A stretch of 64,000 nt of DNA from Roseibium sp. (GTDB lineage Bacteria; Pseudomonadota; Alphaproteobacteria; Rhizobiales; Stappiaceae). The stretch lies in contig JAEPNV010000014.1 of the NCBI GenBank assembly GCA_017643215.1, positions 62,001 through 126,000 on the forward strand. The letters run 5' to 3'. The notes beneath the pieces were generated by a model. It saw only the letters and a program-made list of their open reading frames with translations. It was not told where the DNA came from and did no database searches. Positions within the stretch are counted from its first letter, which is position 1; every line of letters starts with the position of its first letter. The translations under genes were made by a program, and so were the position numbers. Shown piece after piece: positions 40,447 to 59,072 of the stretch.

Positions 40447-40472
40447 ATTGACATCTCCCGTTTTTGCCAAAA

Positions 40473-40525
40473 GTTCACATAGCGAACGCTTGTGCGATAA
40501 TTCACCTTCAGTGCAAAATGCGCAA
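40473..40525. promoter_or_regulatory. IclR operator array A (three 15-mers, 19-bp period)
   Basis: GTTCACATAGCGAAC (40473-40487) is a full match to GTKCR-N5-YGMAC. GTGCGATAATTCACC (40492-40506) and GTGCAAAATGCGCAA (40511-40525) are weaker copies exactly 19 bp apart. The array lies between the binding-protein gene and the divergent iclR gene. Rightward, TTCACA (40474-40479), 16 bp and GATAAT (40496-40501) form a good promoter embedded in the array, pointing to autoregulation of iclR. Confidence 0.68.
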
Positions 40526-40637
40526 GTGGTTTTCCGCATTTCTTCTTCTGTCTGTGGGTTATGCGGTGTGGTACGGAATGGTGGACGCGATGACGTGATG
40601 TTGGGTTTTGGCAACGCAACGTAGAAAGGAGGGCATC

Positions 40638-41528
40638 ATGGCCACGAGGTCGAAAGCGAAGGACGCTGCCGAAACTGGCGGCGCATCTGACCACGTTGCA
40701 AAACCTGCCGAGTCGCCGATCGGCCTGATGACGGCTGCACCCGACGACCTTGACGAGGCCAGCAGTGGCGTGAATTCACGCGATTATGTCAGTTCGCTTG
40801 CGCGGGGCCTCGATGTCCTGCGTGCGTTCAACCAAACCCGCCGAAAGATGACGCTTTCGGAAGTCGCCGCTGAAACCGGCAACACCCGCGCAGGCGCGCG
40901 CCGCATTTTGCTGACGCTGGTCCGTGAGGGCTACGCAGTGGCGGACGGACGCTTGTTCGACCTGACGCCAAAAGTCCTTGAACTCGGATTTTCCGTCCTC
41001 TCCTCCAAGGGAACATGGGATATCGCACGGCCCTTTATCGAGCACCTTTCCGAAGAAACCCGGGAGAGTGTCTCGGCCGCCATTCTCGACAAATACGATG
41101 TGGTCTATGTCTGCGGCACACAGGCCCATCGCGTGATCAGCGTGGGGATCACCGTGGGCCGGCGCTTCCCGGCCCATGTGACCGCGACCGGCCGCGTGCT
41201 GTTGGCCGGGTTGCCGGAAGAGCAGTGGCCGGACATGATCCGCGGCATCCCGTTGGAGCCCATCAACGAGCGCACGGTGACGGACCGCGCCAAGTTCCGC
41301 AAAATCCTTGAAAAGGTGCGTGACCAGGGCTGGTCGCTGGTCGATCAGGAGCTTGAAACCGGGCTTATGTCGATCGCGGTCCCGCTCTATCTTTCGTCCG
41401 GCGTGATGGCGGGGGCGGTGAATGTCGGTGTTCCGACATTGCGCATGTCGTCCGACGACATGGTCAATGACTTGCTGCCGAAGCTGCAAGAAACCGTCAC
41501 CAACATAAGCCTGGCCCTACGACGTTAG
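40638..41528 (+). CDS. IclR-family transcriptional regulator
   Basis: A 296-aa regulator. A charged N-terminal extension of about 50 residues precedes the winged helix (YVSSLARGLDVLRAFNQTRRKMTLSEVAAETG, then RAGARRILLTLVREGY) and an effector domain with the IclR signature (VGRRFPAHVTATGRVLLAGL, SLVDQELETGLMSIAVPLY). This is close to the PcaR/PobR/CatR subgroup. GAAAGGAGGGCATC decides ATG 40638. Divergent from the ABC operon. Six intergenic regions between 40.4 and 57.2 kb carry sites resembling the 15-bp PcaR operator, so this protein probably controls the whole island. Confidence 0.93.
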   Translation: MATRSKAKDAAETGGASDHVAKPAESPIGLMTAAPDDLDEASSGVNSRDYVSSLARGLDVLRAFNQTRRKMTLSEVAAETGNTRAGARRILLTLVREGYAVADGRLFDLTPKVLELGFSVLSSKGTWDIARPFIEHLSEETRESVSAAILDKYDVVYVCGTQAHRVISVGITVGRRFPAHVTATGRVLLAGLPEEQWPDMIRGIPLEPINERTVTDRAKFRKILEKVRDQGWSLVDQELETGLMSIAVPLYLSSGVMAGAVNVGVPTLRMSSDDMVNDLLPKLQETVTNISLALRR

Positions 41529-41532
41529 TGCC

Positions 41533-42660
41533 TTAGGTGGTAAACCTGCCGGGCGAAAAACGCTCGATATCGGTATTGGGGACCTGGCCCAGTGCAATGT
41601 CCGCGGCCAAGCGCCCAACCAGCGGCCCGAGCGTGTAGCCAGCGTCGCCAGGAACGGCCATGACAACGCGCTTACATGCGGGCAGACGGCCGATAATCGA
41701 CGCGCCGTCGGTGGTCGTGTTCATCCCCGCCCACGTCCGGATCACACTGAGGTTGCCAATCGCCGGGACAAGCTCGGCCGCAAGTGCGACGTTGCCCAAC
41801 AGCGAGGTTACTTCGACCTCTGGTGGACGATGGGGACCGCAATCCTTTGCGGCCCAGCCGCCGCCGATGACGATCTGGCCAGAACCGAACTGTTTTAAAG
41901 TGATGGACCGCTCCGCGTGCTGAACCAGGTGCGAGAGGGCGATCGACGCCGGCTCCGTAATGTTCATGTGCAGCGGTTCGGCTTGGGAGGGAATGGCAAC
42001 ACCGAACGGCCTGGTCAATTCGCCGCTGCCCCAGGCCGCAGCGACAATGACCTGATCTGCCCGGTGGTCTCCATTTGCCGTATGCACGGTAATGCCGTTG
42101 GCGGCCTCGGTGAGCGCTTCCACAAACACGGTTTCGCGTCTGGCGCCCGCCGCCTCCGCCCGTGCGCGTAAACGCTTGTTGGCGATCAGCGGATTGAGTT
42201 TTCCCTCATCGCGGCACAGCTCCGCGCCGACAATATGAGCGCCCAGCCACGGCGCGATGTTTTCAAGGTCCTGCCGCTGGAGAATGTCGACCGTCAGGCC
42301 TTGGGCGGCCTCCCGCTCCGCTTTCTTTTCCAGAAAGGCCAACTGTTCATCGCTTTCGGCGAGCATCAACCCGCCGTTTCGCACCAGGTCGACGCCGCCC
42401 AGCTGCTCATCGAGCTCGACCCAGGTCTCCGCTGCCTGCCGATAAAACGGGAGTGAGGCCTCCACCGCCGGCACTTGGTTTGGGTATAAGCGCATGAACC
42501 GGCTTTGCATCTGGACATGCAAGGATCCGGCATTGGCGTCTGAGCCCGCGTTCCGGGCAGCGTCCAAGATGGTAACCCGCGCGCCGTTTTCGGCAAGGTG
42601 GATCGCCGCCATCGTGCCGGTGACGCCGCCGCCGACGACCAGCACATCAGCCGCCGGCAT
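41533..42660 (-). CDS. FAD-dependent oxidoreductase, DAO family (dehydrogenase subunit)
   Basis: A 375-aa flavoprotein of the D-amino-acid oxidase/SoxB/HcnC type. N-terminal VLVVGGGVTGTMAAIHLAENG binds FAD; ANAGSLHVQMQSRF follows, and the C-terminus has RTWAGMNTTTDGASIIGR and VPGDAGYTLGPLVGR. ATG 42660 overlaps the upstream 2Fe-2S/FAD gene by 14 nt, so the two should form one complex, as in D-hydroxyproline dehydrogenase, opine oxidase or HCN synthase. It oxidises a C-N bond of an amino-acid-like compound; which one is unknown. A paralogue lies at 49963-51102. Confidence 0.9.
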   Translation of the reverse strand: MPAADVLVVGGGVTGTMAAIHLAENGARVTILDAARNAGSDANAGSLHVQMQSRFMRLYPNQVPAVEASLPFYRQAAETWVELDEQLGGVDLVRNGGLMLAESDEQLAFLEKKAEREAAQGLTVDILQRQDLENIAPWLGAHIVGAELCRDEGKLNPLIANKRLRARAEAAGARRETVFVEALTEAANGITVHTANGDHRADQVIVAAAWGSGELTRPFGVAIPSQAEPLHMNITEPASIALSHLVQHAERSITLKQFGSGQIVIGGGWAAKDCGPHRPPEVEVTSLLGNVALAAELVPAIGNLSVIRTWAGMNTTTDGASIIGRLPACKRVVMAVPGDAGYTLGPLVGRLAADIALGQVPNTDIERFSPGRFTT

Positions 42661-44347
42661 CGCATGTCTCGATCTTGGCCACCTCTTCGCAGTCGCGCGC
42701 GGCCTTTTCGGCCGCGAGAATTGTTGAAATGGCCACCGGTTTGATCGGCACACGCGGCGCAAAAAAGCTCAAATCGTCAATGGCCTGACCGGTGGCTTGA
42801 GACACGATTTGCGCCGCGAGCGGGCCGCAATAGCGCCCCTGACAGCGTCCCATGCCCACCCGGGTCGCGCGCTTGAGCGTCCCGATATGGCCTGGCTTTG
42901 TTGACAAGCCTGCGCGCACGTCGCCAACGGTCAATTCCTCGCAGCGGCACAGAATCGTGTCGTCCGCCAAAGCCGCAGTGTCCTTTGGAGCGATGTCGTA
43001 GAGCCTCCACAGATTCTTTTGGAACAAGCGGTGTTTCGCCAGTTTTCGGCGTTTCTGCGATAAGTCCGCAGCGTTACCGTGGCCAGTTGCTGCGGCCGCG
43101 CTCGCGCCGGCAATCTCGCCTTCAATCCGCGCGGCCGGCGCACCGCCGAGCCCCGTGCAATCGCCAATCGCATAAACGCCGGTGACGCTTGTTTCCATCG
43201 ACGCGTTTTTCTCGCACCGCAAATGCCCCATCGCTGTGTCGTAGTGCATTTGCGCGCCGAGCAGGCGCAGGATTTCATTTTGGGGCTCAAAGCCGCCATT
43301 CATGCACAGCGCATCGATCTGAACCGTCTCTTCGCGCCCGGACGCGCCGCGAAACGTCGCCGCGAGCCCATTACTTTCCCTAGTGACCCTGATCAGTTCG
43401 GTGCCAGTATGAACCTTGATCCCGTGCCGGCGAAGGCCTGCGAGCATCCCCAAACCTTGCAGGGTCAGCTTCGGATCAGAAGCGGCCATGGAAAGGGCGG
43501 CGAGGGGTCTTGTCAAAGCCGATTTCGCGCGTTCGGCAATGTAGACGATTTCAGCGCCGCCTTTTCCAAGTTCCAGAGCCACCTGCACATTGAGCGGCCC
43601 CGACCCGCAAACGGCAATACGCATTCCGGGAAGTGTTTGATAGCTCCGCCAAAGGGTCTGCGCCGCTCCTGTCGTCATCACGCCCGGCATCGTCCATCCC
43701 GGAACTGGGACCGGCCGTTCGTAGGCGCCGGTCGCGATGATCGCCGTTTTCGGTGTGGCGATCACGGGCACGCCATCGCGATGGCCAAAGAATCGGAGAC
43801 CGTCAAAAGCGCCCCAGAGTTCCACACCCGCGATCACTTGCGCGCCGGATGCCCGCGTCCTTTCAACCAGCCGTGCACCCTCAGCCTGCTGCTGGTCGAG
43901 GATCGTCTTGTCGGCTGCCTGTTTGTAATATTGGCCTCCGGCCACCTTGCGCTCGTCGATCAGAACCACATTGGCGCCAGCTTCAGCGGCCGTACTGGCC
44001 GCCGACAAACCTCCAGCCCCACCGCCAATCACCAATACGTCCGGGGAGAGCCGAAGCGCTTCTGCCGACGGTGGTTCCACGGCGGCTCCGAATTCCGGAA
44101 GGGCCACCTGACGGGCCACCTCCATGCCATCTTCGACCGGCGTCATGCACGCCCGGCGGTTGGGAACACCGTCAATGGTGACCAGGCAGTCCTGGCAGAC
44201 GCCCATACCGCAGAAGATACCGCGCTCGGCGTCTTTCGCGGTGTCCCGAAAGGCGCGAACGCCGGCTTCAGTGAGAGCCGCCGCGAGGCTTTGTCCGTCT
44301 CGCGCGGTGATGTCTTTTCCGTTGAACCGAAAGGTCTTCGCACCCAT
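42647..44347 (-). CDS. Fused 2Fe-2S/FAD-NAD/BFD-like dehydrogenase subunit (HcnAB/OoxA/LhpE-F type)
   Basis: A 566-aa protein joining parts that are often separate genes. Residues 1-90 form a ferredoxin-like 2Fe-2S domain with Cys46, Cys51, Cys54 and Cys67 (FCGMGVCQDC). Residues 100-425 are a pyridine-nucleotide-disulfide-type FAD domain (VLVIGGGAGGLSAAS, IAVCGSGPLNVQVALEL, GVYAIGDCTGLGG). Residues 465-510 have Cys467, Cys469, Cys502 and Cys507, a BFD-like second 2Fe-2S site (LCRCEEL, GRCQGRYCG). Start ATG 44347, 5 nt after the lambda-crystallin-like gene stop. It passes electrons from the DAO-type partner. Confidence 0.92.
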   Translation of the reverse strand: MGAKTFRFNGKDITARDGQSLAAALTEAGVRAFRDTAKDAERGIFCGMGVCQDCLVTIDGVPNRRACMTPVEDGMEVARQVALPEFGAAVEPPSAEALRLSPDVLVIGGGAGGLSAASTAAEAGANVVLIDERKVAGGQYYKQAADKTILDQQQAEGARLVERTRASGAQVIAGVELWGAFDGLRFFGHRDGVPVIATPKTAIIATGAYERPVPVPGWTMPGVMTTGAAQTLWRSYQTLPGMRIAVCGSGPLNVQVALELGKGGAEIVYIAERAKSALTRPLAALSMAASDPKLTLQGLGMLAGLRRHGIKVHTGTELIRVTRESNGLAATFRGASGREETVQIDALCMNGGFEPQNEILRLLGAQMHYDTAMGHLRCEKNASMETSVTGVYAIGDCTGLGGAPAARIEGEIAGASAAAATGHGNAADLSQKRRKLAKHRLFQKNLWRLYDIAPKDTAALADDTILCRCEELTVGDVRAGLSTKPGHIGTLKRATRVGMGRCQGRYCGPLAAQIVSQATGQAIDDLSFFAPRVPIKPVAISTILAAEKAARDCEEVAKIETCDAGG

Positions 44348-44352
44348 TGGCG

Positions 44353-45297
44353 TCAGTCCTGCATCAGCTTATCGCGTTCCGCCACGAGCCGGGCCACGGC
44401 CGAGGAGCGCCAGGCAACCCGTTTGGGAAGCGCGCCGGCCGGCAGCACACTCCGCCGCTGCGCATCAACCTTTGCAACCAAATCCGAATTCCAATCAACC
44501 GTTTCTCCGCGATCTTCGCCGATGCGCTTGTATGCCGGGCCCATGCGGGCCGCGTGTGCCTTGATCCCGCCAGGGGTGTTGAGTTCAGCCGTTTCAAAGG
44601 GGCCCGACAGCGCCCAGCGCGGTCCAAGCCCCATGCGCATGACCGTATCGATCCCGGCCGCGTCGGTCACGCCTTCATCAACAAGGCGGTAGGCTTCGCG
44701 CAGCACCGCGCTTTGCAGACGGTTCAGCACGAACCCTTCAATTTCATGGCCGAGTTGGACCGCTTCAAACCCGACCGCCCGAAACACATCCGAGGCGGTT
44801 TTGGTCGCGTCGGGATCGGTGCCCGGCGCTGGAACCAGTTCGATGATCCGCAGGACCGACGGGGGATTGACCGGGTGCGCCACAAGACAGCGGCGCTGAC
44901 GTTCTGGCTCGGGCACGATCTGGGAGATGGTGATGGCGGAGGATGCGGTCGCAACAACAGCCTCGCGGCTCACATGCGACAGGATGTCGGCAAAGATCGC
45001 TTGTTTGGCCGTCACATCTTCGGGACCGCACTCCAGAATCAGATCGGCATCAGCAATGGACGTTCCGGCTTGATCCAAGACATTGATCACGCCGGCGCCG
45101 CCACGCGTGAGACCCGCAGCCCCGATGGCCGCCTGGTGAACCGCAATTTCTAGATCGGCGGCCGCGCGGCGCGCAATGTCGGGATCGACCAGGCGAACAT
45201 GCGCGCCGGAATCGGCAAAAACCGCGGCGAAGGAGAGACCGATCGAGCCCGCACCAAGGATCGTGATCTTGCGGGGTGTTGGTGTTTTGTCTTGCAT
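44353..45297 (-). CDS. 3-hydroxyacyl-CoA dehydrogenase-fold protein, lambda-crystallin/carnitine dehydrogenase-like
   Basis: A 314-aa NAD-dependent dehydrogenase: ITILGAGSIGLSFAAVFADSG cofactor motif, ECGPEDVTAKQAIF, ATASSAITISQI, the catalytic-His segment VAHPVNPPSVLRIIELVP and GFVLNRLQSAVLREAYRLV. Length and motifs fit the L-gulonate 3-dehydrogenase/L-carnitine dehydrogenase group more than fatty-acid enzymes. ATG 45297 has no ribosome site; the IclR operator ends two bases upstream, so a leaderless message is possible. First gene of a three-gene operon with the FAD dehydrogenase. Confidence 0.88.
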   Translation of the reverse strand: MQDKTPTPRKITILGAGSIGLSFAAVFADSGAHVRLVDPDIARRAAADLEIAVHQAAIGAAGLTRGGAGVINVLDQAGTSIADADLILECGPEDVTAKQAIFADILSHVSREAVVATASSAITISQIVPEPERQRRCLVAHPVNPPSVLRIIELVPAPGTDPDATKTASDVFRAVGFEAVQLGHEIEGFVLNRLQSAVLREAYRLVDEGVTDAAGIDTVMRMGLGPRWALSGPFETAELNTPGGIKAHAARMGPAYKRIGEDRGETVDWNSDLVAKVDAQRRSVLPAGALPKRVAWRSSAVARLVAERDKLMQD

Positions 45298-45299
45298 GC

Positions 45300-45333
45300 G
45301 TTCACATAACGCACAAATGTGCGGCCTAAGCAA
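45300..45333. promoter_or_regulatory. IclR operator array B
   Basis: GTTCACATAACGCAC (45300-45314) is a full match and identical to the site at 54169. GTGCGGCCTAAGCAA (45319-45333) is a half-conserved copy at +19 bp. It lies between the leftward dehydrogenase gene, whose ATG ends two bases from it, and the rightward SDR. In the leftward direction TTATGT is placed as a -10 for a transcript starting at the ATG. Confidence 0.66.
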
Positions 45334-45391
45334 ATGAGAAATGGGCCCATTTGGTTTGCGCTTTCAAACACCAGTCCTGGAGGTTTCGGCC

Positions 45392-46150
45392 ATGGTAGAA
45401 AATCTGTCCTTGAGGGGCCGCCGCGCTGTGGTCACCGGCGCGGCCAGGGGGCTCGGCCGCGCCATCGCCGCGCGGCTGGCCGAGGCGGGCACCGAGATCA
45501 TCGCGGTGGATCTGCCTGACATCGCGAACGACCTGCCGGCCGGTTTCCAGACGGAGGCGATCGATCTGGCCGACGACCAGGCTCTGGATCAACTCGCCGA
45601 GCTCGCGGATCGCCTCGAAACAGTGGACATTTTGATCGCCAATGCCGGCCTTGTCCCGCCCTGGCGCGGGATCGACCAGTTGGACCTTGAAGAATGGGAC
45701 CGTGTCATGCGCGTCAACGTCTTCGGCGTCGCGGCCACGATCGGGGCCTTTGCCGGTGCATTGGAGCGATCCGGGCGAGGCGCGGTCGTGGCGATGGCGT
45801 CCATCAATGGCTACAAGGCTCATCCAAAACAGGTGCTTTACACGGCCTCCAAACACGCTGTGATTGGCGTCGTTCGGGCCGCGGCCCTCGACCTTGGGGC
45901 CCGCAACATTCGCGTCAACGCGCTCGCACCGGGACCCATCGCCACGGAGGCACTGATCGGCAGGGTTCAGAACCGCCACGAAGCGGGCGGTCCGCCGCCG
46001 GATGAGGCGTTTTCCGGCCTTGCCGCAGAGACCGCTCTCGGACGCCTTGCAACGGAGACCGATGTGGCCAATGCCGCCGTCTTCCTCGCCTGCGAAGCAT
46101 CCGGCGGGATGACCGGCGTTGTCCTGCCCGTGGAAGCGGGCTTGGCCTAG
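45392..46150 (+). CDS. Short-chain dehydrogenase/reductase
   Basis: A 252-aa classical SDR: VTGAARGLGRAIAARL, DILIANAGLVPPW, catalytic Ser in MASINGYKAHPKQ, YxxxK in LYTASKHAVIGV, then VNALAPGPIATEAL. CTGGAGGTTTC before ATG 45392. Divergent from the lambda-crystallin-like gene over operator array B. Its stop shares CTAG (46147-46150) with the convergent isomerase-like gene. Confidence 0.92.
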   Translation: MVENLSLRGRRAVVTGAARGLGRAIAARLAEAGTEIIAVDLPDIANDLPAGFQTEAIDLADDQALDQLAELADRLETVDILIANAGLVPPWRGIDQLDLEEWDRVMRVNVFGVAATIGAFAGALERSGRGAVVAMASINGYKAHPKQVLYTASKHAVIGVVRAAALDLGARNIRVNALAPGPIATEALIGRVQNRHEAGGPPPDEAFSGLAAETALGRLATETDVANAAVFLACEASGGMTGVVLPVEAGLA

Positions 46151-46986
46151 CCGCGCGGAGCCCAGCCGTTGGCGGCAAGAATGTCGTGGCTGGCCCTGAT
46201 GTCGCCATCGGGGTCCGCGCCGTCCGCAAGTGCATCCGCGATGATCTCCAGCACGGTCACGCCCTGGTAGCCAATATCCCTCAGCGCCTTCGCGGTGGGG
46301 CCTGGTTCGACAATCCCAGTCCCTAGTTTCGCGTGTTTAAAGTCGTCGTAGCCGGAATCGGAGATATGCACGTTCTTCACCAGGCTGCCGAGCATACGAA
46401 TGGCCTCGGCCGGGTCTTCCTTGATGAAAGCGCTGTTGCAGACGTCAAAATTCACGCCGATCTCGGGACCGATCAATGCGGCCGTATCAGCCATGTCCTT
46501 CGCCGTCGGGAGGTAAGTGAACGGCACGTTTTCAAGGAGAAGCTGCACGCCGGTGCCCTTGGCATAGGCGATGAGGTCCTTCATGCCTTCAACGAACCAG
46601 TCGAGCATCCATTGGTGCGGCGGATTGATGAGGCTGTTGACCGGTCCGGGTATGGCAACCACATACGGGCATTCCAATTCGGCCGCAAAATCGATCGCTT
46701 CCTTGTAGCGGTCCAAGGTGTAGGCGCGCATCAGCCGATCCACCCCATTGGGGTTGTTGTCCAGCAACGGATAACAGAAGCTGCTCACATGACCGCCTTC
46801 GCCGTTGAGCCATGCCTTGTAATCCCGCCGGTCGGCGACCGTCAGCTCGCGCGGCCAGCAGTGCGGCGGAAAGATCATCAACTCATACGTGTCGTAGCCG
46901 AGCGTTTTCAGGTGTTTCAGTGCATCCAGGCCGCCATGGGAATAGAGGAAGGGGAAGGTACTGGCGGCAACACGGAGCGGGGACAT
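46147..46986 (-). CDS. Xylose-isomerase-like TIM-barrel sugar phosphate isomerase/epimerase
   Basis: A 279-aa protein of the AP_endonuc_2/IolE-like fold: LKTLGYDTYELMIFPP, QLLLENVPFTYLPTAKDM (metal-site Glu), GVNFDVCNSAFIKEDP, NVHISDSGYDDFKHAKLGTG (metal-site His) and LEIIADALADGADPD. The family includes isomerases, epimerases and dehydratases, so the reaction is not known. ATG 46986, with operator array C upstream. Confidence 0.88.
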   Translation of the reverse strand: MSPLRVAASTFPFLYSHGGLDALKHLKTLGYDTYELMIFPPHCWPRELTVADRRDYKAWLNGEGGHVSSFCYPLLDNNPNGVDRLMRAYTLDRYKEAIDFAAELECPYVVAIPGPVNSLINPPHQWMLDWFVEGMKDLIAYAKGTGVQLLLENVPFTYLPTAKDMADTAALIGPEIGVNFDVCNSAFIKEDPAEAIRMLGSLVKNVHISDSGYDDFKHAKLGTGIVEPGPTAKALRDIGYQGVTVLEIIADALADGADPDGDIRASHDILAANGWAPRG

Positions 46987-47023
46987 GGACGGACCTTTCT
47001 GCTTGTCTGAGCTTCCGCGCCAT

Positions 47024-47057
47024 GTTCAAATAGCGCACATAAGTTACTATAACGCAC
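47024..47057. promoter_or_regulatory. IclR operator array C with embedded promoter
   Basis: GTTCAAATAGCGCAC (47024-47038) is a full match. GTTACTATAACGCAC (47043-47057) is a second copy exactly 19 bp on. For the rightward OYE gene, TTCAAA (47025-47030), 17 bp and TATAAC (47048-47053) make a promoter whose two hexamers lie in successive operator units. Leftward it faces the isomerase-like gene. Confidence 0.7.
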
Positions 47058-47103
47058 GACTCGCGACGATCAATCGCAATTTCCCAAAGGTCCAAGGTCT
47101 TCC

Positions 47104-48204
47104 ATGTCTGCTCAATTGTTCACGCCCTTTCAGTTGGGAGGGCTTACCGTCCCCAATCGTGTCGTTGTCTCGCCGATGTGCCAGTATGCGGCCACGGACG
47201 GGGTGCCGGGCGACTGGCATCTTGTACATCTGGGCCAGTTTGCAATGTCAGGGCCGGGCACCGTGTTCGTCGAGGCGACGGGTGTCGAACCGAACGGGCG
47301 AATCACGCACGGCTGCACCGGTCTTTACGACGATGCGTGCGAACAGGCCTTTTCAAGAATCATAAGCTTCATGAAGTCCGTCAGTGACGTGCGAGTCGGC
47401 ATTCAGCTCAGCCACGCAGGGCGAAAGGGAAGTACGGTTGCACCGTGGGAAGGCGGCGGCCTGATTGAGGGCGACGGCGCGTGGGTCACGGATGCCCCCT
47501 CGGCCGTTCCTTATCTGCCGGGCTGGCCGGAGCCCCGTGCCATGGATGATGCGGCGCTGAAACGGGTCCGCGACGCGTTCGTTGACGCCGCCAGACGGGC
47601 GGACCGGGCCGGATTCGACCTGATCGAATTGCACGTCGCCCACGGATACCTGCTGCACCAATTCTTGTCGCCGATCACCAACCGGCGGCAGGACCAGTAC
47701 GGCGGTTCACTTGAAAACCGCATGCGCTATCCGCTTGAGGTCTTTAAGGCCGTGCGCGATGCGTTTTCCTCCGATAAACCGGTGGCCGTGCGTCTTTCGG
47801 CCACCGATTGGATCGACGGGGGATGGGATGTGACCGGGTCCCTGGCGTTTTCACAAGCGCTGAAAGACGCCGGCTGCGCAATGATCGACGTCACCTCCGG
47901 CGGGCTGGATCAGCGCCAGGAGATCACCACCGGGCCCGGCTATCAGGTGGGTTTCGCCGAGACAATCCGGCGCGAGGTTGGCATGCCGGTCATGGCGGTT
48001 GGCCAAATCACCGACCCGATTCAGGCCGAAACGATCGTCGCGACCGGTCAGGCGGATCTGGTGGCCCTGGCGCGTGGCATGCTCTGGGACCCGCGCTGGA
48101 CCTGGAAGGCGGCCGTGGCGCTGCGGGCGGAAATCGCGCTCCCGGCGCCTTACGCGCGCTGCAATCCGGCCCTTGCGGCGACGCCGTTCGTGAAGCGGAG
48201 CTAG
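47104..48204 (+). CDS. Old yellow enzyme family FMN oxidoreductase, YqjM-like
   Basis: A 366-aa TIM-barrel flavoenzyme. FMN-tuning Cys26 and Tyr28 in SPMCQYAA mark the YqjM class. Other motifs: QLSHAGRKGS (residues 101-110), the substrate His pair in IELHVAHGYLLHQFLSP, NRRQDQYGGSLENRMR and the phosphate-site VGQITDP with ALARGMLWDPRW. Members reduce activated C=C bonds; relatives also demethylate N-methyl-prolines. Start ATG 47104. It precedes an SDR gene by 2 nt in one operon. Confidence 0.92.
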   Translation: MSAQLFTPFQLGGLTVPNRVVVSPMCQYAATDGVPGDWHLVHLGQFAMSGPGTVFVEATGVEPNGRITHGCTGLYDDACEQAFSRIISFMKSVSDVRVGIQLSHAGRKGSTVAPWEGGGLIEGDGAWVTDAPSAVPYLPGWPEPRAMDDAALKRVRDAFVDAARRADRAGFDLIELHVAHGYLLHQFLSPITNRRQDQYGGSLENRMRYPLEVFKAVRDAFSSDKPVAVRLSATDWIDGGWDVTGSLAFSQALKDAGCAMIDVTSGGLDQRQEITTGPGYQVGFAETIRREVGMPVMAVGQITDPIQAETIVATGQADLVALARGMLWDPRWTWKAAVALRAEIALPAPYARCNPALAATPFVKRS

Positions 48205-48206
48205 TT

Positions 48207-48968: not shown

Positions 48969-48970
48969 TG

Positions 48971-49921
48971 TTATTCGGCCGCCAATTGCCTGGCTTCGAT
49001 CGCGTCAACGATCCGATCCAGCTCCTCCATCAACGGCACCATGCGGGCGACGCGGTCCCGGCCTTCCGCGCCGAGGCTTTCAAACGTGGTGATGGGCGCG
49101 CGGACATCCCCGACGGGGTATCCGGCAGCGGCGGCCAAGGCCTTGGAATAACACTGGTGACCATAAAGCGGGTGGCCTTCGGTGATGATGGCATCGAATT
49201 TCGAAATCACCGCCTGGACGGCCTGCACGTCATCCCAGCGGCCCTGTTCGGCCCATTCCACAAACTTCACCGAAGCCCGCGGAATATAGTTGCCATAAGG
49301 GTTCACGTAGCCCTTGGCCCCCATCTTGTAGCTTTCAAGGACCCGCTGCCCGGCCCAGACGTTCATCAGACCGTCGCTCTCGACGATGATATCGTGGACG
49401 CGCTCGATACGCTGGCTCGCTTCCTTGATGTACCGGATCTGATCGAAGCTCTTCGTAAGGTGCCCCACGAGCTTGGCGCTCATATCGACATTCGACGTGA
49501 ACGGGTTGTTGTAGAGCATGATCGGCAAATTGCAGCCGTCGCAGATCGCCTGATAGTAGTTGAAGATCTCGTCTTCGGTGGGCGTGTAGTAATAGGGCGG
49601 GATGATCATCAGCCCGTCCGCGCCCAGATCCTCGGCCTGTTTGGAATAGCGCACTGCGTTCGGTGTGTAGGCGTTCATCGTACCGACCCAGACGGTGATC
49701 CGACCGCTGATGTATTTGACCGTGTGATCGACGAACTGCTCGCGTTCGTCATCCGTCACGGTCAGGAACTCCCCGGTCGTTCCCAGAATAATGACCCCTG
49801 GAACGTCATTGGCCATCTGCCAGTCGAGGAAGCGTTCCCAAGCGGGATAGTCGATGGCCCGGCCGCCCTCGGTGAACGGGGTGATGGTGACAGTGTGACT
49901 GCCGGAAAAACTCTTGCTCAT
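48971..49921 (-). CDS. DapA/N-acetylneuraminate lyase family protein (copy 2)
   Basis: A 316-aa aldolase or dehydratase family protein: ILGTTGEFLTVTDDERE, PPYYYTPTEDEIFNYY, Tyr in IMLYNNPFTSNVDMS, Schiff-base Lys in IRYIKEASQRIERVHD. Clearly different from the copy at 34947, so the two probably act on different intermediates. ATG 49921 is chosen; the gap to the divergent FAD gene is only 41 bp and no consensus IclR site was seen there. Confidence 0.9.
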   Translation of the reverse strand: MSKSFSGSHTVTITPFTEGGRAIDYPAWERFLDWQMANDVPGVIILGTTGEFLTVTDDEREQFVDHTVKYISGRITVWVGTMNAYTPNAVRYSKQAEDLGADGLMIIPPYYYTPTEDEIFNYYQAICDGCNLPIMLYNNPFTSNVDMSAKLVGHLTKSFDQIRYIKEASQRIERVHDIIVESDGLMNVWAGQRVLESYKMGAKGYVNPYGNYIPRASVKFVEWAEQGRWDDVQAVQAVISKFDAIITEGHPLYGHQCYSKALAAAAGYPVGDVRAPITTFESLGAEGRDRVARMVPLMEELDRIVDAIEARQLAAE

Positions 49922-49962
49922 GCTGTTCTCACGGGTTGGACGCCGAAGGAAGTGTACCACTG

Positions 49963-51102
49963 ATGGCCGGCGGTTTTGATGTTGTGGTGATTGGTGGCGG
50001 TATCACGGGCTTGATGACCGCCTGGAACCTGGCGGACGGCGGGGCGAGGGTTGCACTTGTCGAAGCGGGTGACTTGGGGGCCGAAGCGTCCGGCGCCAAT
50101 GCCGGGTCGCTGCATCTGCAAATCCAATATCCAGAATTTGCGCTTTACGGCGAAGACTGGGCGCGAGCCTATGGTCCGTGCCTGGGATTTTTGAAGGCGT
50201 CGCTCGATCTTTGGCAGGCGTTGTCTGAACGGGTCGGAGAGGACTTGGACGTCAAACTGGGCGGCGGTATCATCGTTGCTCAAAACGATGAACAGATGCG
50301 GTTGATTGCGCGAAAAGCGCGGATCGAAGCCGCGCATGGCGTCGAAACCACGCTGCTGGACGGCGGTCAGTTGCGCGCTTTGGCGCCTTATTTGACCAAC
50401 ACGGCGGTCGGTGGTGGCTTTTGCGCGTTGGAGGGCAAAGCCAATCCGCTGCGCGCAACGCCGGCGGTTGCGCTGGCCGCGCAGCGGGCCGGTGTCACGA
50501 TCATGCGAAAGACCACCGTCACGGGCATTTCGGCGGAGACGGGCGGTTTTCAAATCGCGACCTCGAACGGGTTGCTGGAGGCGCAGCGCGTGGTCAATGC
50601 GGCCGGCGCGCGGGCAGGGGAGATCGCGGCGATGCTGGGCGTTGCGATTGAGATCGACGGCTTTCCGTTGCAAGTCACCGTCACAGAGCCGGTCGCCCCG
50701 CTCATTCCCCATCTTGTTTACTCGGCGGCCGGAAAGTTGTCGCTGAAGCAGGCCGCAAATGGCGGCTGCATCATCGGCGGCGGATGGCCGGCGGCGTTGC
50801 GTGCGAACGGCACGCTCTTCATCGATCCGGCCAGCCTGACCGGCAATATGGGCGTGGCCGCGGGTGTCGTGCCCAAGCTTGGACAGATGCGCGCGATCCG
50901 GAGCTGGACGGCATGGGTGAACGGGACCCCGGACTGGCGCCCCATCCTGGGTGAGGTGCCGAATAGACCCGGCTTTTTTTTGGCGCTTTTCCCCTGGGTC
51001 GGTTTCAGCGCCGCGCCGATGACCGCGAAGGTGATCGCCGAACTCGTGCTCGGCCGGCGGCCAAGCACAGACCTGAAAGGCGTTTCGGTCCTGGCGGACT
51101 GA
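49963..51102 (+). CDS. FAD-dependent oxidoreductase, DAO family (second copy)
   Basis: A 379-aa flavoprotein, paralogous to 41533-42660: both carry the ANAGSLH(L/V)Q(I/M)Q segment. FAD motif FDVVVIGGGITGLMTAWNLAD; C-terminal RSWTAWVNGTPDWRPILGE and LFPWVGFSAAPMTAK. AAGGAAGTG precedes ATG 49963. It stands alone between the divergent DapA-type gene and the convergent gcvPB-like gene; it may use the fused 2Fe-2S/FAD subunit or act as a separate oxidase. Confidence 0.88.
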   Translation: MAGGFDVVVIGGGITGLMTAWNLADGGARVALVEAGDLGAEASGANAGSLHLQIQYPEFALYGEDWARAYGPCLGFLKASLDLWQALSERVGEDLDVKLGGGIIVAQNDEQMRLIARKARIEAAHGVETTLLDGGQLRALAPYLTNTAVGGGFCALEGKANPLRATPAVALAAQRAGVTIMRKTTVTGISAETGGFQIATSNGLLEAQRVVNAAGARAGEIAAMLGVAIEIDGFPLQVTVTEPVAPLIPHLVYSAAGKLSLKQAANGGCIIGGGWPAALRANGTLFIDPASLTGNMGVAAGVVPKLGQMRAIRSWTAWVNGTPDWRPILGEVPNRPGFFLALFPWVGFSAAPMTAKVIAELVLGRRPSTDLKGVSVLAD

Positions 51103-51125
51103 CGGTCGTGCAGCGGCCACGGCGG

Positions 51126-52688
51126 TTAGGCTGCCCCCCGTTCGGTCTTGCCGCTGCCCACGATTTTGCGCTGGTAAGCGCGCCAGGTCATCGCCCATTT
51201 GGACGGGTCTTCAAAAACGTCCCCCTTGACCTGGGCGACCGCCTGATTGTGCGGGGCGGTTTTGACCGTCTCCGGGTCCGTTCGCGCCTCTTCCGCGATT
51301 TTCGCGATAACGTCGATCCAAAGATCGATGTCTTCCTTCGACCAGAGCTCGCCGGCTTCCGGGGTGAACGGCTCCGGCACAATCCAGGGCTCGTGGCTCA
51401 TCCACCACGGATCAATGCCGTAATCGGCCATCCGGTTGGCGAAATCGACGGTTCCAATGCCGGTTTCTTCCGCCAGGGGCCCCAGCGACCAGCGCGTCAT
51501 TTCCATCCGGTGGGCTTTGACGTCCGGATTGGAGATCGCCAGCCCCGGGATTTCGGAGAGGCGCTTGTCCATATAGTTGTTGGCGACCACCGAGATATCC
51601 GAGGCGAGCTGAATGCCCTCCGCGCCCATGCCCCGGGCCCAGGCATAAGCCTTCACGACCTGGGGAACATTGCCCCAATACTCGCGGACCTTGCCGGCCG
51701 ACTTCGGACGGTCTTCATCCAGCCGGTAACGGCCACCATCCTTCACCACCACGGGCGTTGGAAGATACGGTGCCAGGTCGTTGGAACAGCCAAAGGCGCC
51801 GACGGCCGGACCGCCGCCCGCCTTTGGCGCGCCGAAGGTCTTGTGCAGCATGAACATGCAGGCGTCGAACCCCAGCTCGCGCGCCGACAGCTTGCCCATC
51901 ACGCCATTAAAGTTGGCGTGATCATAAAAGCAGAGCGCACCGGCCTCCTTCGCCACCCGCACCCATTCCTTGATCTCCGGATTGTAGATGCCCATATCGT
52001 CCGGATTGTTCAGCATGATGAGCGCTGTCTTGTCGCTCACCGCGGCTTTCAACGCATCCAGCGACGGGTAGCCGTTTTCCTCCAGCGGCAGGTTGATCAC
52101 CTTAAAGCCTGCCGCCGCGGCCGTCGCCGGATTGCAAGGATGCGATTGGGCCGACGTCACCATTTCCGTCCGTTGGCCGAGCATGCCCCTGTCCCGCCAA
52201 TAGGCGCGGGCCAGCGCCGTCATGGTGTAGGCGGCATCCGCGCCGCCGCCAGCCTGGAAGATGAATTGATCCATCCCGGACAAGGAGCGCAGAATGCCAT
52301 CGAACTCATGCATGATGCCAAGTACGCCCTGCAGGGTGTCTTCGTGCTGATAGGGATGCACTTCAGATAGTTCAGGACGCAAGGTGGCAAATTCGGACGT
52401 CTTGGAATTGTATTTCATGGTGCAGGTGCCGAAAAGGCTGATGCCCATCATGCCAAGCGTCATCTGGCTCAAATGAAGATAGTGCCGCTGCGCTTCGAAC
52501 TCGGTGATTTCGGGCAGTTTTGGCCGGTCCTTGCGTGCCATGGCGGCTGGAATCAGATCGTCGCCGACGCTGTCGATCACCTCGTTTTCAGGTGCGGGGA
52601 AGATCTGCCCGCGGCCGCCGGGGCGACCCATTTCCATGATGACCGGCTCGTCCCATTTCGCGGCATGGAAATCTGGCACGCGGCTCAT
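51126..52688 (-). CDS. Glycine dehydrogenase (decarboxylating) subunit 2-like, GcvPB-like
   Basis: A 520-aa PLP protein of the GcvPB family: SLFGTCTMKYNSKTSEF, QAGGGADAAYTMTALARAYW and PLP Lys283 in MLHKTFGAPKAGGGPAVG. Several pocket segments differ from those I recall for true GcvP: the HGTNPASA loop reads SHPCNPATA, YDGANLN reads YDHANFN, and PHGGGGPG reads PKAGGGPA. Overlaps gcvPA as ATGA. No gcvT or gcvH gene is nearby. It may be a decarboxylase acting on another amino acid, or may use the host's lipoyl H-protein. Confidence 0.88.
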   Translation of the reverse strand: MSRVPDFHAAKWDEPVIMEMGRPGGRGQIFPAPENEVIDSVGDDLIPAAMARKDRPKLPEITEFEAQRHYLHLSQMTLGMMGISLFGTCTMKYNSKTSEFATLRPELSEVHPYQHEDTLQGVLGIMHEFDGILRSLSGMDQFIFQAGGGADAAYTMTALARAYWRDRGMLGQRTEMVTSAQSHPCNPATAAAAGFKVINLPLEENGYPSLDALKAAVSDKTALIMLNNPDDMGIYNPEIKEWVRVAKEAGALCFYDHANFNGVMGKLSARELGFDACMFMLHKTFGAPKAGGGPAVGAFGCSNDLAPYLPTPVVVKDGGRYRLDEDRPKSAGKVREYWGNVPQVVKAYAWARGMGAEGIQLASDISVVANNYMDKRLSEIPGLAISNPDVKAHRMEMTRWSLGPLAEETGIGTVDFANRMADYGIDPWWMSHEPWIVPEPFTPEAGELWSKEDIDLWIDVIAKIAEEARTDPETVKTAPHNQAVAQVKGDVFEDPSKWAMTWRAYQRKIVGSGKTERGAA

Positions 52689-54106
52689 GACAGCACCTCC
52701 TTCAGGGTGTCGGCCAGGCGCCTGATATCGGCGGCCGAATGCACTTCTGTAACGCAGTAGAGGGCCGATTGCCCAAGCCCCAATCCTTCGCCGGAGATGT
52801 CCTTGCCGCCAAATATGCCGTGGGCCCGCAGGGCATCGTTGATCTCCGCAACCCTCTTGCCGGTGTCATCGAAGTTGACAACGAACTCCTTGAACTGGGT
52901 GTTCGGCCAGACGATACGCACACCTGGAACCTCGCCCAAGAGCTTGCTGGCATACCGCGCCCGCGAAACGATCAGGCGGCCGACTTCGGCAAAACCGTCC
53001 GGACCGAGCAGGCTCATGTACACCGCCCCGGCAATCGCCCAAAGGTACGTGGAGTTGCCGGTCCAGTCATTGCCGTCTTCCCGCATGCCGTAGGAGTTTT
53101 GATGCGGGCAGGCGAGCCCGAAGGCGTGTTGACCGGGCTCGCGCGTTTCGGCGATGGACACCAGGAAGCCGTTATAGCTGCGCACGTAGGTTTCTTCATC
53201 GCGGGAGGCGATAAAGCCGCCGGCGCCGCCACCGCAATGCATATGGACACCCAGCGGCTGCACCGGTCCCGTCACAATATCGGCGCCATAGTCTCCAGGC
53301 GCGGTCATCACGCCAAGACTGATCGGGTCGACACCCACAATGGTTTCGGCGCCCGCGGCGCGGGCCCGTTTGGCAATATCCGCAGCATCTGTTTCAATTG
53401 TGCCGAGATAGGCCGGGTTTTCGAGGTAGACCGCGGCGACATCCGGCCCGAGTTTGGCGTTGAGGTCGTTGAGGTCCAGCCGTCCCGACGTCGGGTCCGC
53501 GGCGACCAGAACCACCTCAATGGCGCTGTCCATCTCCTGCGGCTGGCAGTAGGTGCGGATCACCGAAAGGCGTTCCGGATCAGAAAACTGCGGGACCAGG
53601 ACTTTCCTTCGGCCGGTGATCTTGGCCGCCATGCGGATGGCATGGCCGCTCGCACAGCCCCAGGAATAAACGGGCAGTTGAACCACATCGAGGTTCAAAA
53701 GCGCGCCAAGCTGAGACGAGAACTCAAACCAGGTCTGGTTGCGGCCATGGTCCGACTGATAGCTGCCCCAAACGTTGGTCGCGAACTCCGTGCGGCCGAC
53801 GATTTCGTCGACGATCGCCGGCACATGATGTTGCCAGACGCCGGCGCCGAGGAAACTGAGATTGTCTTCGCAGTTTTCGTTTTTCTTCAGCCGGGTCACC
53901 AGATCGCGTTTCAGCTCCATCTCGCTGGTCAGCGCGGGCGGGAGGGTGAGGGGGGTCTTGCGGCGGTGATCCGCCGGGATCTGCTCAAACAGCGCCTCGA
54001 CGGACGACACGCCGATATAATCAAGCATGTCATCGATCACACCCGGCGCCGAAAGCGCCATCCAGGGGTGCGACCGCGGCGAGGCCAGCCTCGATTCAGT
54101 GGACAT
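52685..54106 (-). CDS. Glycine dehydrogenase (decarboxylating) subunit 1-like, GcvPA-like
   Basis: A 473-aa GcvPA-family protein: HPWMALSAPGVIDDMLDYIG, LSFLGAGVWQHHVPAIVDEI, TWFEFSSQLGALLNLDVVQLP, IVGVDPISLGVMTAPGDYGADIV (two segments) and GGGAGGFIASRDEETYVR. Fold type I without the PLP lysine, which is in subunit 2. Start ATG 54106. Operator array D lies 44-77 bp upstream, putting this pair in the IclR regulon. Confidence 0.88.
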   Translation of the reverse strand: MSTESRLASPRSHPWMALSAPGVIDDMLDYIGVSSVEALFEQIPADHRRKTPLTLPPALTSEMELKRDLVTRLKKNENCEDNLSFLGAGVWQHHVPAIVDEIVGRTEFATNVWGSYQSDHGRNQTWFEFSSQLGALLNLDVVQLPVYSWGCASGHAIRMAAKITGRRKVLVPQFSDPERLSVIRTYCQPQEMDSAIEVVLVAADPTSGRLDLNDLNAKLGPDVAAVYLENPAYLGTIETDAADIAKRARAAGAETIVGVDPISLGVMTAPGDYGADIVTGPVQPLGVHMHCGGGAGGFIASRDEETYVRSYNGFLVSIAETREPGQHAFGLACPHQNSYGMREDGNDWTGNSTYLWAIAGAVYMSLLGPDGFAEVGRLIVSRARYASKLLGEVPGVRIVWPNTQFKEFVVNFDDTGKRVAEINDALRAHGIFGGKDISGEGLGLGQSALYCVTEVHSAADIRRLADTLKEVLS

Positions 54107-54149
54107 ACGTCACTCCTCAGATCATGCGCGGATGCCGGAAACAGCGGCA

Positions 54150-54183
54150 TGCGTAAAAGTGCACAAAAGTTCACATAACGCAC
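54150..54183. promoter_or_regulatory. IclR operator D upstream of gcvPA-like gene
   Basis: GTTCACATAACGCAC (54169-54183) is a full match and identical to the one at 45300; the identity extends to 17 bases with AA following in both. A poor copy, TGCGTAAAAGTGCAC (54150-54164), is at -19 bp. It is the only strong regulatory sequence in the 107-bp gap between the NAD-kinase-like and gcvPA-like genes, suggesting a separate promoter. Confidence 0.64.
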
Positions 54184-54213
54184 AACCGAAATCAAGCCAG
54201 TTCTCGGGCGGTT

Positions 54214-55326: not shown

Positions 55327-55410
55327 TGTTCTGCACCGCTTAGATCATCGAACATAACGACCACAGCTCAAAACGTCGGGCGTTTCCGGCGCCGCGTTCC
55401 GACAAGCAAC

Positions 55411-56103
55411 CTAAACCGGATCCGGGGCAAAAATCTGCGGATACATGTGCCGCATGGCTTCCTCATCGAACTCCTGCTTGAAGGTGTGTTGCGTCGGCAA
55501 GGCTTTAGCGCGCTGCGCAGCGGGCCGGGCGTCGATGTCGCGCATCAAACGATCAAGGTTGGGGTACTTTTCCATGATGGTGTCATCGGCGAGCATGTAG
55601 GTGAGCCGGTCACCCCAGCCCCAGACCGCCATGTCCAAAATCGTATAGGCATCGCCCATCATGTAGCGCCCCTTGGACAGCCGGTCATCGATGATCTGCC
55701 AGTGCCGGCGCGCTTCAAAGTCATAGCGCTTCACGGCATAGGGAATGTGTTCGGGCGCGAACTTCCGAAAGTGCACGGCCTGGCCGGAATAGGGCCCGAC
55801 TCCTGACGCGATGAACATGAGCCAGGAAAGCAGACTGCCACGGGCGCCTGGTGCGCCGGGCGGCAGGAACCGGCCGGTCTTTTCCGCCAGATAGAGCAGG
55901 ATCGCGTTGCTGTCGAACACCGGGACATCGCCGTCAATGATGGCGGGAACCTTCGCATTCGGGTTGATTTGCTTGAAGGTGTCGGTGTGCTGCTGGCCGC
56001 GTTTGGAATCAATCGGGACCGGCTCGTAAGCAATCCCGCTTTCTTCCAAGAACAGGGCGACCTTCATCGGATTTGGTGCGGCATTGTAGAAGAATTTGAT
56101 CAT
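55411..56103 (-). CDS. Glutathione S-transferase family protein, YghU/YfcG-like
   Basis: A 230-aa GST: thioredoxin-fold N-terminus (FFYNAAPNPMKVALFLEESG), cis-Pro in NPNAKVPAIIDGDVPVFDSNAILLYLAEKTG (two segments) and a helical C-terminal domain (YTILDMAVWGWGDRL). This matches the nu-class/YfcG-type branch, which has disulfide-reductase or thiol-transfer activity. ATG 56103, 16 bp from operator array F. Confidence 0.9.
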   Translation of the reverse strand: MIKFFYNAAPNPMKVALFLEESGIAYEPVPIDSKRGQQHTDTFKQINPNAKVPAIIDGDVPVFDSNAILLYLAEKTGRFLPPGAPGARGSLLSWLMFIASGVGPYSGQAVHFRKFAPEHIPYAVKRYDFEARRHWQIIDDRLSKGRYMMGDAYTILDMAVWGWGDRLTYMLADDTIMEKYPNLDRLMRDIDARPAAQRAKALPTQHTFKQEFDEEAMRHMYPQIFAPDPV

Positions 56104-56118
56104 TCTTGCCCCTCAGGC

Positions 56119-56171
56119 GTTCGATATCGTAACAATTGTGCGCCAATTGAACACGAGTGCGCCCGGCGGGC
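56119..56171. promoter_or_regulatory. IclR operator array F (three 15-mers, 19-bp period)
   Basis: GTTCGATATCGTAAC (56119-56133), GTGCGCCAATTGAAC (56138-56152, the full match) and GTGCGCCCGGCGGGC (56157-56171, half match) follow each other at exact 19-bp steps. For the leftward GST gene, TTCAAT (56151-56146) and GATATC (56128-56123) are 17 bp apart and could be the -35 and -10. The rightward neighbour is the deacetylase gene. Confidence 0.66.
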
Positions 56172-56210
56172 AAGCCGCCCGCGTACCCGGCACCGAAATG
56201 AGGGCGGCAA

Positions 56211-57110
56211 ATGGACAGCGGGATCAACCATCTAAGGCCCTGGGAGACCGAGGAAGCCGTTTGGCGCCGTTTGGTCAACCGCGTGCGCGCGGGCCGCGAA
56301 CTGGCCCCGGCGTCCTGGCCGAACGGTGCCCAATGCGCGATGGCCCTGTCGTTTGACTGCGACCATGAGACGTTTGAACTGGGAATGGGAAAGTCCGCCA
56401 TTGGGCGCCTTGGTTGGGGTGAGTTCGGGCGCCGCCGCGGCGTGCCGCGAATCCTTGCCGTTTTGGCCCGTCATGACGTTAAAGCCAGTTTTTTTGTACC
56501 TGCGGTTTCGGCATTGATTGATCCCGGCGCATTGGAGCCGATCATCGGTGATGGCCACGAAATCGGCGTTCATGGCTGGATCCACGAGAACACCAGCCTG
56601 CTGGACCAGGACACGGAGCGCGAACTGCTCTTGCGATCCCGGGACACGCTCGAGCGGCTGACCGGCACACCGCCCATCGGGCACCGCGCCGCCCATTGGG
56701 ACCTCAGCGAGAACACGATCGCATTGGTCGCCGAAGCCGGGTTTTCCTACGACAGCAGCATGATGGCCGATGACGGCTGTTATGAGCTGTTGAGTGACGG
56801 AAATCCGACCGGGCTGGTGGAAATCCCGGTCGATTGGGTCAGGGACGATGCGGTCTACCTTCTGTTCAACCGGGACCCGGCCACCCGGCCCTGGACGCCA
56901 CCGGCCGACGTGTTCGACATCTTCAAGCGCGAGTTCGACATGGCCTTCGAGGAAGGCGGTGTCTGCCAGCTCGTTTTCCACCCATTTGTTATCGGCTACC
57001 GGTCGCGCATTTGGATCCTCGACCACCTGATCGAACACGCGAAAACCCGCGGCAATGTGTGGTTTGCCACCCATGCCGAGCTGGCAGATTGGGTCCGGGC
57101 CAACGGATAG
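56211..57110 (+). CDS. Polysaccharide deacetylase family protein (NodB-like, PuuE-like)
   Basis: A 299-aa cytoplasmic NodB-homology protein. The metal Asp pair is in LSFDCDHETF (near residues 49-51), the His pair in GHEIGVHGWIHENTSL, followed by IGHRAAHWDLSENT and FSYDSSMMADDG. No signal peptide, so a cytoplasmic amidase/deacetylase is more likely than a cell-wall enzyme. Start ATG 56211 after GAGGGCGGCAA. Divergent from the GST over array F. Confidence 0.88.
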   Translation: MDSGINHLRPWETEEAVWRRLVNRVRAGRELAPASWPNGAQCAMALSFDCDHETFELGMGKSAIGRLGWGEFGRRRGVPRILAVLARHDVKASFFVPAVSALIDPGALEPIIGDGHEIGVHGWIHENTSLLDQDTERELLLRSRDTLERLTGTPPIGHRAAHWDLSENTIALVAEAGFSYDSSMMADDGCYELLSDGNPTGLVEIPVDWVRDDAVYLLFNRDPATRPWTPPADVFDIFKREFDMAFEEGGVCQLVFHPFVIGYRSRIWILDHLIEHAKTRGNVWFATHAELADWVRANG

Positions 57111-57134
57111 CTGGCGGGAGGTCGCCTCAATATT

Positions 57135-57168
57135 GTGCGCATCACGAACAAAAATTTATCTTGCGCAC
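57135..57168. promoter_or_regulatory. IclR operator array E upstream of the TRAP operon
   Basis: GTGCGCATCACGAAC (57135-57149) is a full match to GTKCR-N5-YGMAC. ATTTATCTTGCGCAC (57154-57168), conserved on its right arm, is exactly 19 bp on. Together they lie 75-108 bp upstream of the dctQ-like start, just after the deacetylase stop. Confidence 0.62.
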
Positions 57169-57242
57169 TTTTTAAAAGTACCCCATCATTCCGTAGTTGT
57201 ACGCAGGTTGACCTCTGCGGCGGTTCGGGTCGGGAGGCTTGC

Positions 57243-57770: not shown

Positions 57771-57775
57771 TTAGC

Positions 57776-59044: not shown

Positions 59045-59072
59045 TGCTTTACCAACAGGGAGAACAGACCGC

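Follow-up and report, generated by a model that had tools for sequence, protein, structure and literature searches.

Regulator Gene, Island, and Operators

The window, that is, the whole stretch of 64,000 nucleotides analysed here (Roseibium sp., assembly GCA_017643215.1, contig JAEPNV010000014.1, positions 62,001 to 126,000), carries the gene of an IclR-family regulator (40638..41528, + strand, 296 amino acids) within an island of catabolic and transport genes, and six operators, named A to F, are distributed over the promoters of this island. One regulator very probably switches the gene cluster. In detail, the island is read as the catabolic and transport regulon of the protein encoded at 40638-41528, acting through operators of three or four half-sites, and a probability of about 0.85 is given to this reading. 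The regulon is real and strongly conserved at its core, and its kind is already known.

The regulator contains the domains HTH_IclR (PF09339, 54.6 bits) and IclR_C (PF01614, 129 bits), both over their cut-offs. It also passes the NCBIfam model TIGR02431, which covers PcaR, PcaU, and PobR, by the narrow margin of 8 bits (292.8 against a cut-off of 284.75 bits). The IclR gene that an earlier note on this DNA had placed at 40638 is thus found there, and it has orthologues in relatives. Neither beta-ketoadipate nor 4-hydroxybenzoate genes are present among the island proteins scanned with Pfam and NCBIfam, and at E<=1 the operator profile described below has no match beyond the island. For these two reasons, the protein is not filed as PcaR, PcaU, or PobR. 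No Rfam element reaches its gathering score within 40000-58000 of the window.

Operator A (40473..40525, + strand) is located between an ABC-transporter operon and iclR. Its palindrome (40473-40487) is followed by a third box, GTGCG, at 40492 and then, at 40511, by another near-palindrome (box GTGCA). The putative target is the gene of a solute-binding protein (SBP; 39109..40446, − strand, Pfam), the first of a leftward gene group extending to ~33421, in which Pfam recognises permeases, an ATPase, a DHDPS-like protein, and two short-chain dehydrogenases (SDRs).

Operator B (45300..45323, + strand) separates 3-hydroxyacyl-CoA-dehydrogenase-like (3HCDH-like) and SDR genes, and consists of the palindrome 45300-45314 and the box GTGCG at 45319-45323. 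Leftward of it, a putative operon (41533..45297, − strand; Pfam and gene order) comprises the 3HCDH-like gene (44353-45297), a SoxA-like FAD/2Fe-2S protein (42647-44347), and a DAO protein (41533-42762 as scanned). Rightward, an SDR dehydrogenase (45392..46150, + strand, Pfam) is the other putative target. The likely ATG of the 3HCDH-like gene (45297) is 2 bp from the operator and has no visible ribosome-binding site; the distance is identical in four relatives (G057, L046, L047, and L067). A leaderless mRNA is possible for this gene.

Operator C (47024..47057, + strand) is found between sugar-isomerase-like and OYE-family genes, with the palindrome 47024-47038 and then GTTAC-N5-CGCAC at 47043-47057. 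Its putative targets are a xylose-isomerase-like TIM barrel protein (46147..46986, − strand, Pfam) and a putative operon (47104..51102, + strand; Pfam, NCBIfam, and gene order) encoding an OYE-family flavoprotein, an SDR, a family-less open reading frame (48968-49963), and a DAO oxidoreductase (49936-51102).

Operator D (54160..54183, + strand) has its extra box, TGCAC, at 54160 and its palindrome at 54169-54183. It is upstream of a GcvPA gene (52685-54106) and a GcvPB gene (51126-52688), both on the − strand (51126..54106), over the NCBIfam equivalog cut-offs, and putative targets of this operator. The two-subunit GcvPA/GcvPB pair is located in a catabolic island beside SoxA/SoxB-like flavoproteins.

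Operator E (56119..56161, − strand) is formed by GTTCG at 56119, the palindrome 56138-56152, and GTGCG at 56157. It is flanked by divergent genes (55411..57110; Pfam), one GST-like (− strand, 55411-56103) and one polysaccharide-deacetylase-like (+ strand, 56211-57110). Operator F (57135..57168, + strand) is upstream of the TRAP transporter genes DctQ-DctM-DctP (57243..60062, + strand, Pfam), its putative targets, and comprises the palindrome 57135-57149 and the box CGCAC at 57164-57168. The longest DctQ reading frame opens at 57135. However, the DctQ domain begins only at residue 63 of this frame, and translation therefore probably starts near 57243-57264.

The Palindrome and Its 19-bp Register

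In the window, the motif GTKCR-N5-YGMAC has nine matches against a shuffle mean of 2.24, and none of the 100 shuffles reaches nine. Six of them are the island matches at 40473, 45300, 47024, 54169, 56138, and 57135, exactly as the earlier note had listed them, and the copies at 45300 and 54169 are identical over 17 bases, as it had also said. The remaining three (6900, 8222, and 60592) lie beyond the island and lack an extra half-site at the 19-bp register. Six matches in 16.7 kb compare with 0.35 predicted by the genome-wide density (Poisson ~2e-6, by arithmetic).

A weaker unit lying 19 bp from the full one had been described for five of the six sites. All the listed units are seen: those at 40492, 40511, 45319, 47043, 56119, 56157, and 57154 score 8, 9, 8, 8, 8, 8, and 8 of 10, with one perfect 5-bp half apiece. 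The sixth unit (54150), which had been dismissed as poor, has a perfect right half (0+5) that corresponds to the TGCAC box at −9 of the palindrome 54169. The count of five is therefore to be corrected, since a displacement of 19 bp, to either side, meets a perfect extra half-site at 6/6 island sites. A displacement of 38 (2 x 19) does so at one of the six and all remaining shifts within 15-45 bp at none. When flanks were simulated with a first-order model fitted to these intergenic regions, a register box appeared at no more than three of six sites, a value reached in 7 of 20,000 trials.

Conservation at Orthologous Promoters

A regulator scan returned 29 loci. In 22 of them (L046-L067), the encoded protein is 67-79% identical in its best segment; the remaining seven, with Streptomyces proteins of 25-26% identity, were dropped. 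The record names of the 22 loci refer mostly to Rhodobacteraceae or to genera which we take to belong to this family; Microvirga, a metagenome-assembled genome (MAG) of Cohaesibacteraceae, two "Alphaproteobacteria" MAGs, and one "Gammaproteobacteria" MAG are also represented.

For each promoter region, the 15-mer with the highest score was counted in 24 sources, the window being included each time; sources in which a contig ended or the downstream gene was not located (one for A, three for B, and five for C) were dropped. Perfect palindromes are present in 22/23 sources at A (SBP/iclR), 19/21 at B (3HCDH/SDR), and 17/19 at C (isomerase/OYE), and the other five regions score 9/10. The sites at three promoters are thus conserved together with the regulator. 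Upstream of iclR, all 23 examinable sources have a site scoring 9 or 10 of 10. The SBP gene was not found in the examined stretches of four loci (L053, L062, L064, and L065), which nevertheless keep the operator upstream of iclR (three perfect, L053 with 9/10), and this fits autoregulation. A second, partial copy of the regulator is found at L064:1-740 (75% identity over 245 amino acids), ~5 kb upstream of the principal copy; this paralogue was excluded by hand from the promoter count.

The extra half-site is conserved too. A perfect register box (+19, −9, or +29) accompanies 6/6 window sites and 54 of the 58 orthologous promoters whose palindrome is perfect, the four others (A of L066 and L067, B of L064 and L066) having GTACG in its place. 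After dereplication, 44 promoters remain. Their extra box is in forward orientation at +19 in 29, in reverse orientation at +29 in nine, and in reverse orientation at −9 in two, and no other offset occurs more than three times. The preference for 19 bp proposed earlier is therefore borne out both in the window and in the relatives.

Per column, near-identical rows having been removed (and, for C, also rows with a box at −9; n = 17, 18, and 11 for A, B, and C), the boxes hold 1.4-1.8 bits overall and 1.6-1.8 bits in A and B. The flanks of A and B have 15-column means of 0.03-0.37 bits, with the exception of one B block at 0.54.

Beyond the three core promoters, site D has counterparts in G057, a genome of another family in the same order, and in the L062 genome, where the site precedes GcvP1 (L130). 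In L057, L060, and L063, the only three loci in which the polysaccharide-deacetylase and DctQ genes were both identified, the junction of the two genes carries a palindrome (9, 10, and 9 of 10, respectively) with a register box. Those of L057 and L060 fall within the long DctQ reading frame, as operator F does in the window. In the relatives, the profile also matches upstream of an SBP_bac_5-like gene in 5/30 loci (L124, L126, L127, L128, and L131), whose product is 33-48% identical to the protein of window 25337-26920.

Specificity in the Host and Related Genomes

The bare 15-mer occurs at 104 places in the whole 4.99-Mb genome, against 56 for a reversed-letter control, and it was rejected as a genome-wide marker for being too common. 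Outside the island, a register box accompanies one of 16 palindromes in 15 loci. The signal is carried by the composite of palindrome and register box and not by the bare 15-mer. That the island sites are chance matches of a degenerate 15-mer, as the 104 matches might be taken to mean, is hardly credible in view of the 19-bp register at 6/6 sites, the conservation across genera, the offset preference in dereplicated promoters, and the restriction of the profile matches to the island.

The last point comes from a profile built from the A, B, and C sites of 42 relatives, with the window and G057 left out. In the host genome, it finds five places at E<=1 (150 of 523 first-look candidates scored), and these are operators B, C, A, E, and D, all in the island. 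Operators D (16.0 bits) and E (22.5 bits, − strand) were recovered even though their promoter types are absent from the training set. In 61 genomes scanned under stricter filters, with at most 108 candidates scored per genome, matches at E<0.01 are found only in the host genome (G000; four) and in G057 (three). Twelve more have E 0.01-0.1, namely operator D in the host, two in G057, and nine in eight other genomes. Together with the subfamily match of the regulator and the conserved sites at three promoters, these scans support the proposal that an IclR regulon unites the island.

In ten regulator-bearing genomes, 62 of the 66 matches at E<=0.5 are on the contig of the regulator. One of the four others (G170:C49) is promoter C on a separate contig of a fragmented assembly. 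Matches at A-C are to be expected in nine of these ten genomes, which had contributed sites to the training set.

Several observations weigh against a regulon of this extent and specificity. Besides the frequency of the bare 15-mer, one G057 match is off the island on another contig (C3:234416, E 0.027), and the nine weak matches at E 0.01-0.1 are from eight genomes without the orthologue. Those of G051 and both of G060 are directly upstream of IclR paralogues (43% and 37%), those of G019 and G027 are at most 3 kb from one (33% and 30%), and those of G001, G021, G049, and G052 have no IclR neighbor among the matches listed. On the other side, and in favor of the preferred reading, the G051, G060, and G019 loci carry a palindrome pair, perfect or one off, 19 bp apart when the third base of the half-site is left free. 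With the strict motif, 28 loci of lower-identity paralogues (L018-L045) show a register box in just 4 of 16 palindromes. Within the island, operator F is the weakest (9.4 bits) and is not picked up by the genome scan, and no orthologous site is shown for operator E in relatives. The flanks of C are themselves conserved (0.12-0.93 bits per block), and C is therefore weaker evidence than A and B. A sigma-70 scan finds one promoter-like sequence (TTCACA-16-GATAAT) within operator A and another (TTGATC-16-TATAGT) spanning operator C; however, its total of four such sites compares with 4.2 in shuffles, so these positions have no statistical weight.

The sites might instead belong to another DNA-binding protein, with iclR as an incidental neighbor, given that the binding by the iclR product is deduced and that the host genome has four other IclR-type matches. 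This is very unlikely, as strong sites (E<0.01) exist in 2/2 genomes with the orthologue and in 0/59 without it, the site upstream of iclR is kept in every examinable source, and the sites have a motif of the PcaR type. The sites are thus attributed to this IclR protein, which would be expected to bind them on the basis of their sequence and distribution.

A Lattice of Half-Sites

The earlier note had described the operators as repeated 15-mer units. The relatives do not agree with this description. Box 3 is conserved in A (1.61 bits) and B (1.78 bits), and box 4 is degenerate there (0.32 and 0.10 bits), so that a single further half-site is conserved and a three-box operator fits better. In C, on the other hand, box 4 is conserved (1.72 bits) and box 3 reads GTTAC (1.37 bits); in the window itself, box 4 of C is perfect. 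The extra box of C is moved to the left side (−9) in five loci, from Pseudotabrizicola (L049, L050, and L055), Pseudorhodobacter (L051), and Cypionkella (L056). Promoter D of G057 consists of two perfect palindromes exactly 19 bp apart, with all four boxes. From this pattern of boxes 3 and 4 in A-C, the left-side boxes of C, and D of G057, the operators appear as three or four half-sites on one lattice, and not as repeats of a 15-mer.

According to the mechanism that we propose, the regulator would recognise the half-site GTKCR (reverse complement YGMAC), and half-sites alternating in direction would be placed on a fixed lattice with offsets 0, 10, 19, and 29 or −9, 0, and 10. The full palindrome would fill the first dimer site, and the further half-site, 19 bp from its counterpart, would anchor a second dimer. 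Two dimers (a tetramer) may thus sit side by side and occupy the operator cooperatively.

The unconserved box 4 of A and B speaks against part of this scheme, because the sequence does not call for a symmetric second dimer. It also agrees with a possible, though less favored, form of the same regulon, in which one dimer binds the palindrome and an alternative, group-2-like dimer spans boxes 2 and 3, a mode suggested for three-box sites of the PcaU type. Boxes 2-3 (YGMAC-N4-GTKCR) are in fact the pair read as the second consensus type in the survey of Suvorova & Gelfand (2021, PMC8222616). However, promoter C, which keeps box 4 next to a box 3 reading GTTAC, and the four boxes of D in G057 are better explained by two dimers at 19 bp. 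For these two dimers, the stacking on one DNA face put forward in the earlier note is an inference and would hold only approximately: at 10.5 bp per turn, arithmetic leaves 19 bp ~69 degrees short of two turns.

Binding over the promoters would repress them until an inducer, derived from the catabolised substrate, releases the regulator, and operator A would allow autoregulation. The sign of regulation is uncertain, because proteins of the PcaR/PcaU/PobR type are known as activators too. Since the closest NCBIfam subfamily includes such activators, an inducer-dependent activator similar to PcaU or PcaR is an alternative to the repressor, albeit a doubtful one: the operators are near start codons (A starts 27 bp from that of SBP and B abuts the likely start of the 3HCDH-like gene), as expected for occlusion.

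Comparison with Known Systems

Operators of this arrangement are not a new code. Tandem IclR-family sites 18-22 nt apart (mainly 19-21) were reported for 94 orthologous groups and three boxes for 32 groups (PMC8222616). The palindrome type, the spacing, and the alternating boxes are the same here. A tandem with centers 18-22 nt apart is formed by two perfect palindromes in D of G057, and in A and B half of the second palindrome is degenerate. The difference is that the extra box changes side between promoters of the present group, an orthologous group which may itself be in the regulon tables of that survey.

The type GTNCG-N5-6-CGNAC is assigned in the same source to PcaR, PcaU, PobR, and others. 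The window sites, tested as GTKCR-N5-YGMAC, conform to it, with A and not G as the fifth base in many of them. The likeness to the site of Pseudomonas putida PcaR, mentioned in the earlier note, is confirmed by the PcaR motif KTCGATWATCGSAY of that survey, which resembles the palindrome. Together with the subfamily TIGR02431, this relates the regulator to PcaR and to PcaU and PobR of Acinetobacter. The binding of PcaU requires a direct half-site repeat (PMC8222616). Unlike in these systems, the island targets are ABC and TRAP transporters, flavin oxidoreductases, SDRs, and GcvPA/GcvPB.

PheR of Sphingobium is an IclR repressor whose footprint covers 44 bp over the start site and whose Hill coefficient is 1.95 (PMC13273656). 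It is similar in that these two values agree with cooperative binding to an operator of tandem size; it differs in its core motif GCAACG and its target, a phenanthrene operon. The PobR of PMC12285266 is described there as AraC-type and hence is not a relevant comparison. No title or abstract start in the literature searched names the present regulon; the tables of PMC8222616, which were outside that search, may list it.

It is conceivable, although unlikely, that a dedicated regulator of the PcaR/PcaU/PobR subfamily left aromatic pathways and came to control a mobile catabolic island for a nitrogen-containing substrate. It would do so through a positional half-site code, in which the position of the third half-site, on one side of the palindrome or the other (or, in C, its change to GTTAC), superimposes each operator on a different promoter element and tunes the promoters separately. 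A glycine-bearing substrate such as mycosporines was considered from the joint presence of GcvPA/GcvPB, SoxA/SoxB-like, and OYE proteins; no title among the papers listed names such a cluster and no claim is made.

With the regulon as preferred here, sequence alone defines a set of promoters, three at the least and probably six, which marks island genes working together. Its core is conserved in Rhodobacteraceae, Microvirga, and one Cohaesibacteraceae genome. No new mechanism is revealed. However, the natural variation within one orthologous group (box right, box left, and four boxes) makes the question of one or two dimerisation modes on IclR three-box sites testable.

Spread of the Island

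G057 has a regulator match of 80%, and it and the host are the only two of the 61 genomes with at least 80%; the remaining matches, among those listed, do not exceed 44%. An order-wide search at E<=1e-70 returned 4/199 genomes, namely the host, G057, G170 (82%), and G073 (51%). A class-wide search at E<=1e-90 returned 1/385, the host's own, among the matches listed (at most six candidates scored per genome). Across 36 genomes of the same genus, the best regulator match is 42% (G022). The island proteins (33421-57110) share ~45-93% identity with those of Rhodobacteraceae and other families. This identity across families, compared with the 42% within the genus, suggests that the island was acquired horizontally.

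The gene order from ~33 to 52 kb is largely common to the relatives, as far as their stretches reach, and in G057 it extends to an NAD-kinase-like gene. Just upstream of that gene, G057 carries two more palindromes with register boxes (L075, ~4615-4790), none being there in the window. The open reading frame 48968-49963 of the putative operator C operon encodes 331 amino acids; it has no Pfam or NCBIfam match and is 44-58% conserved in relatives.

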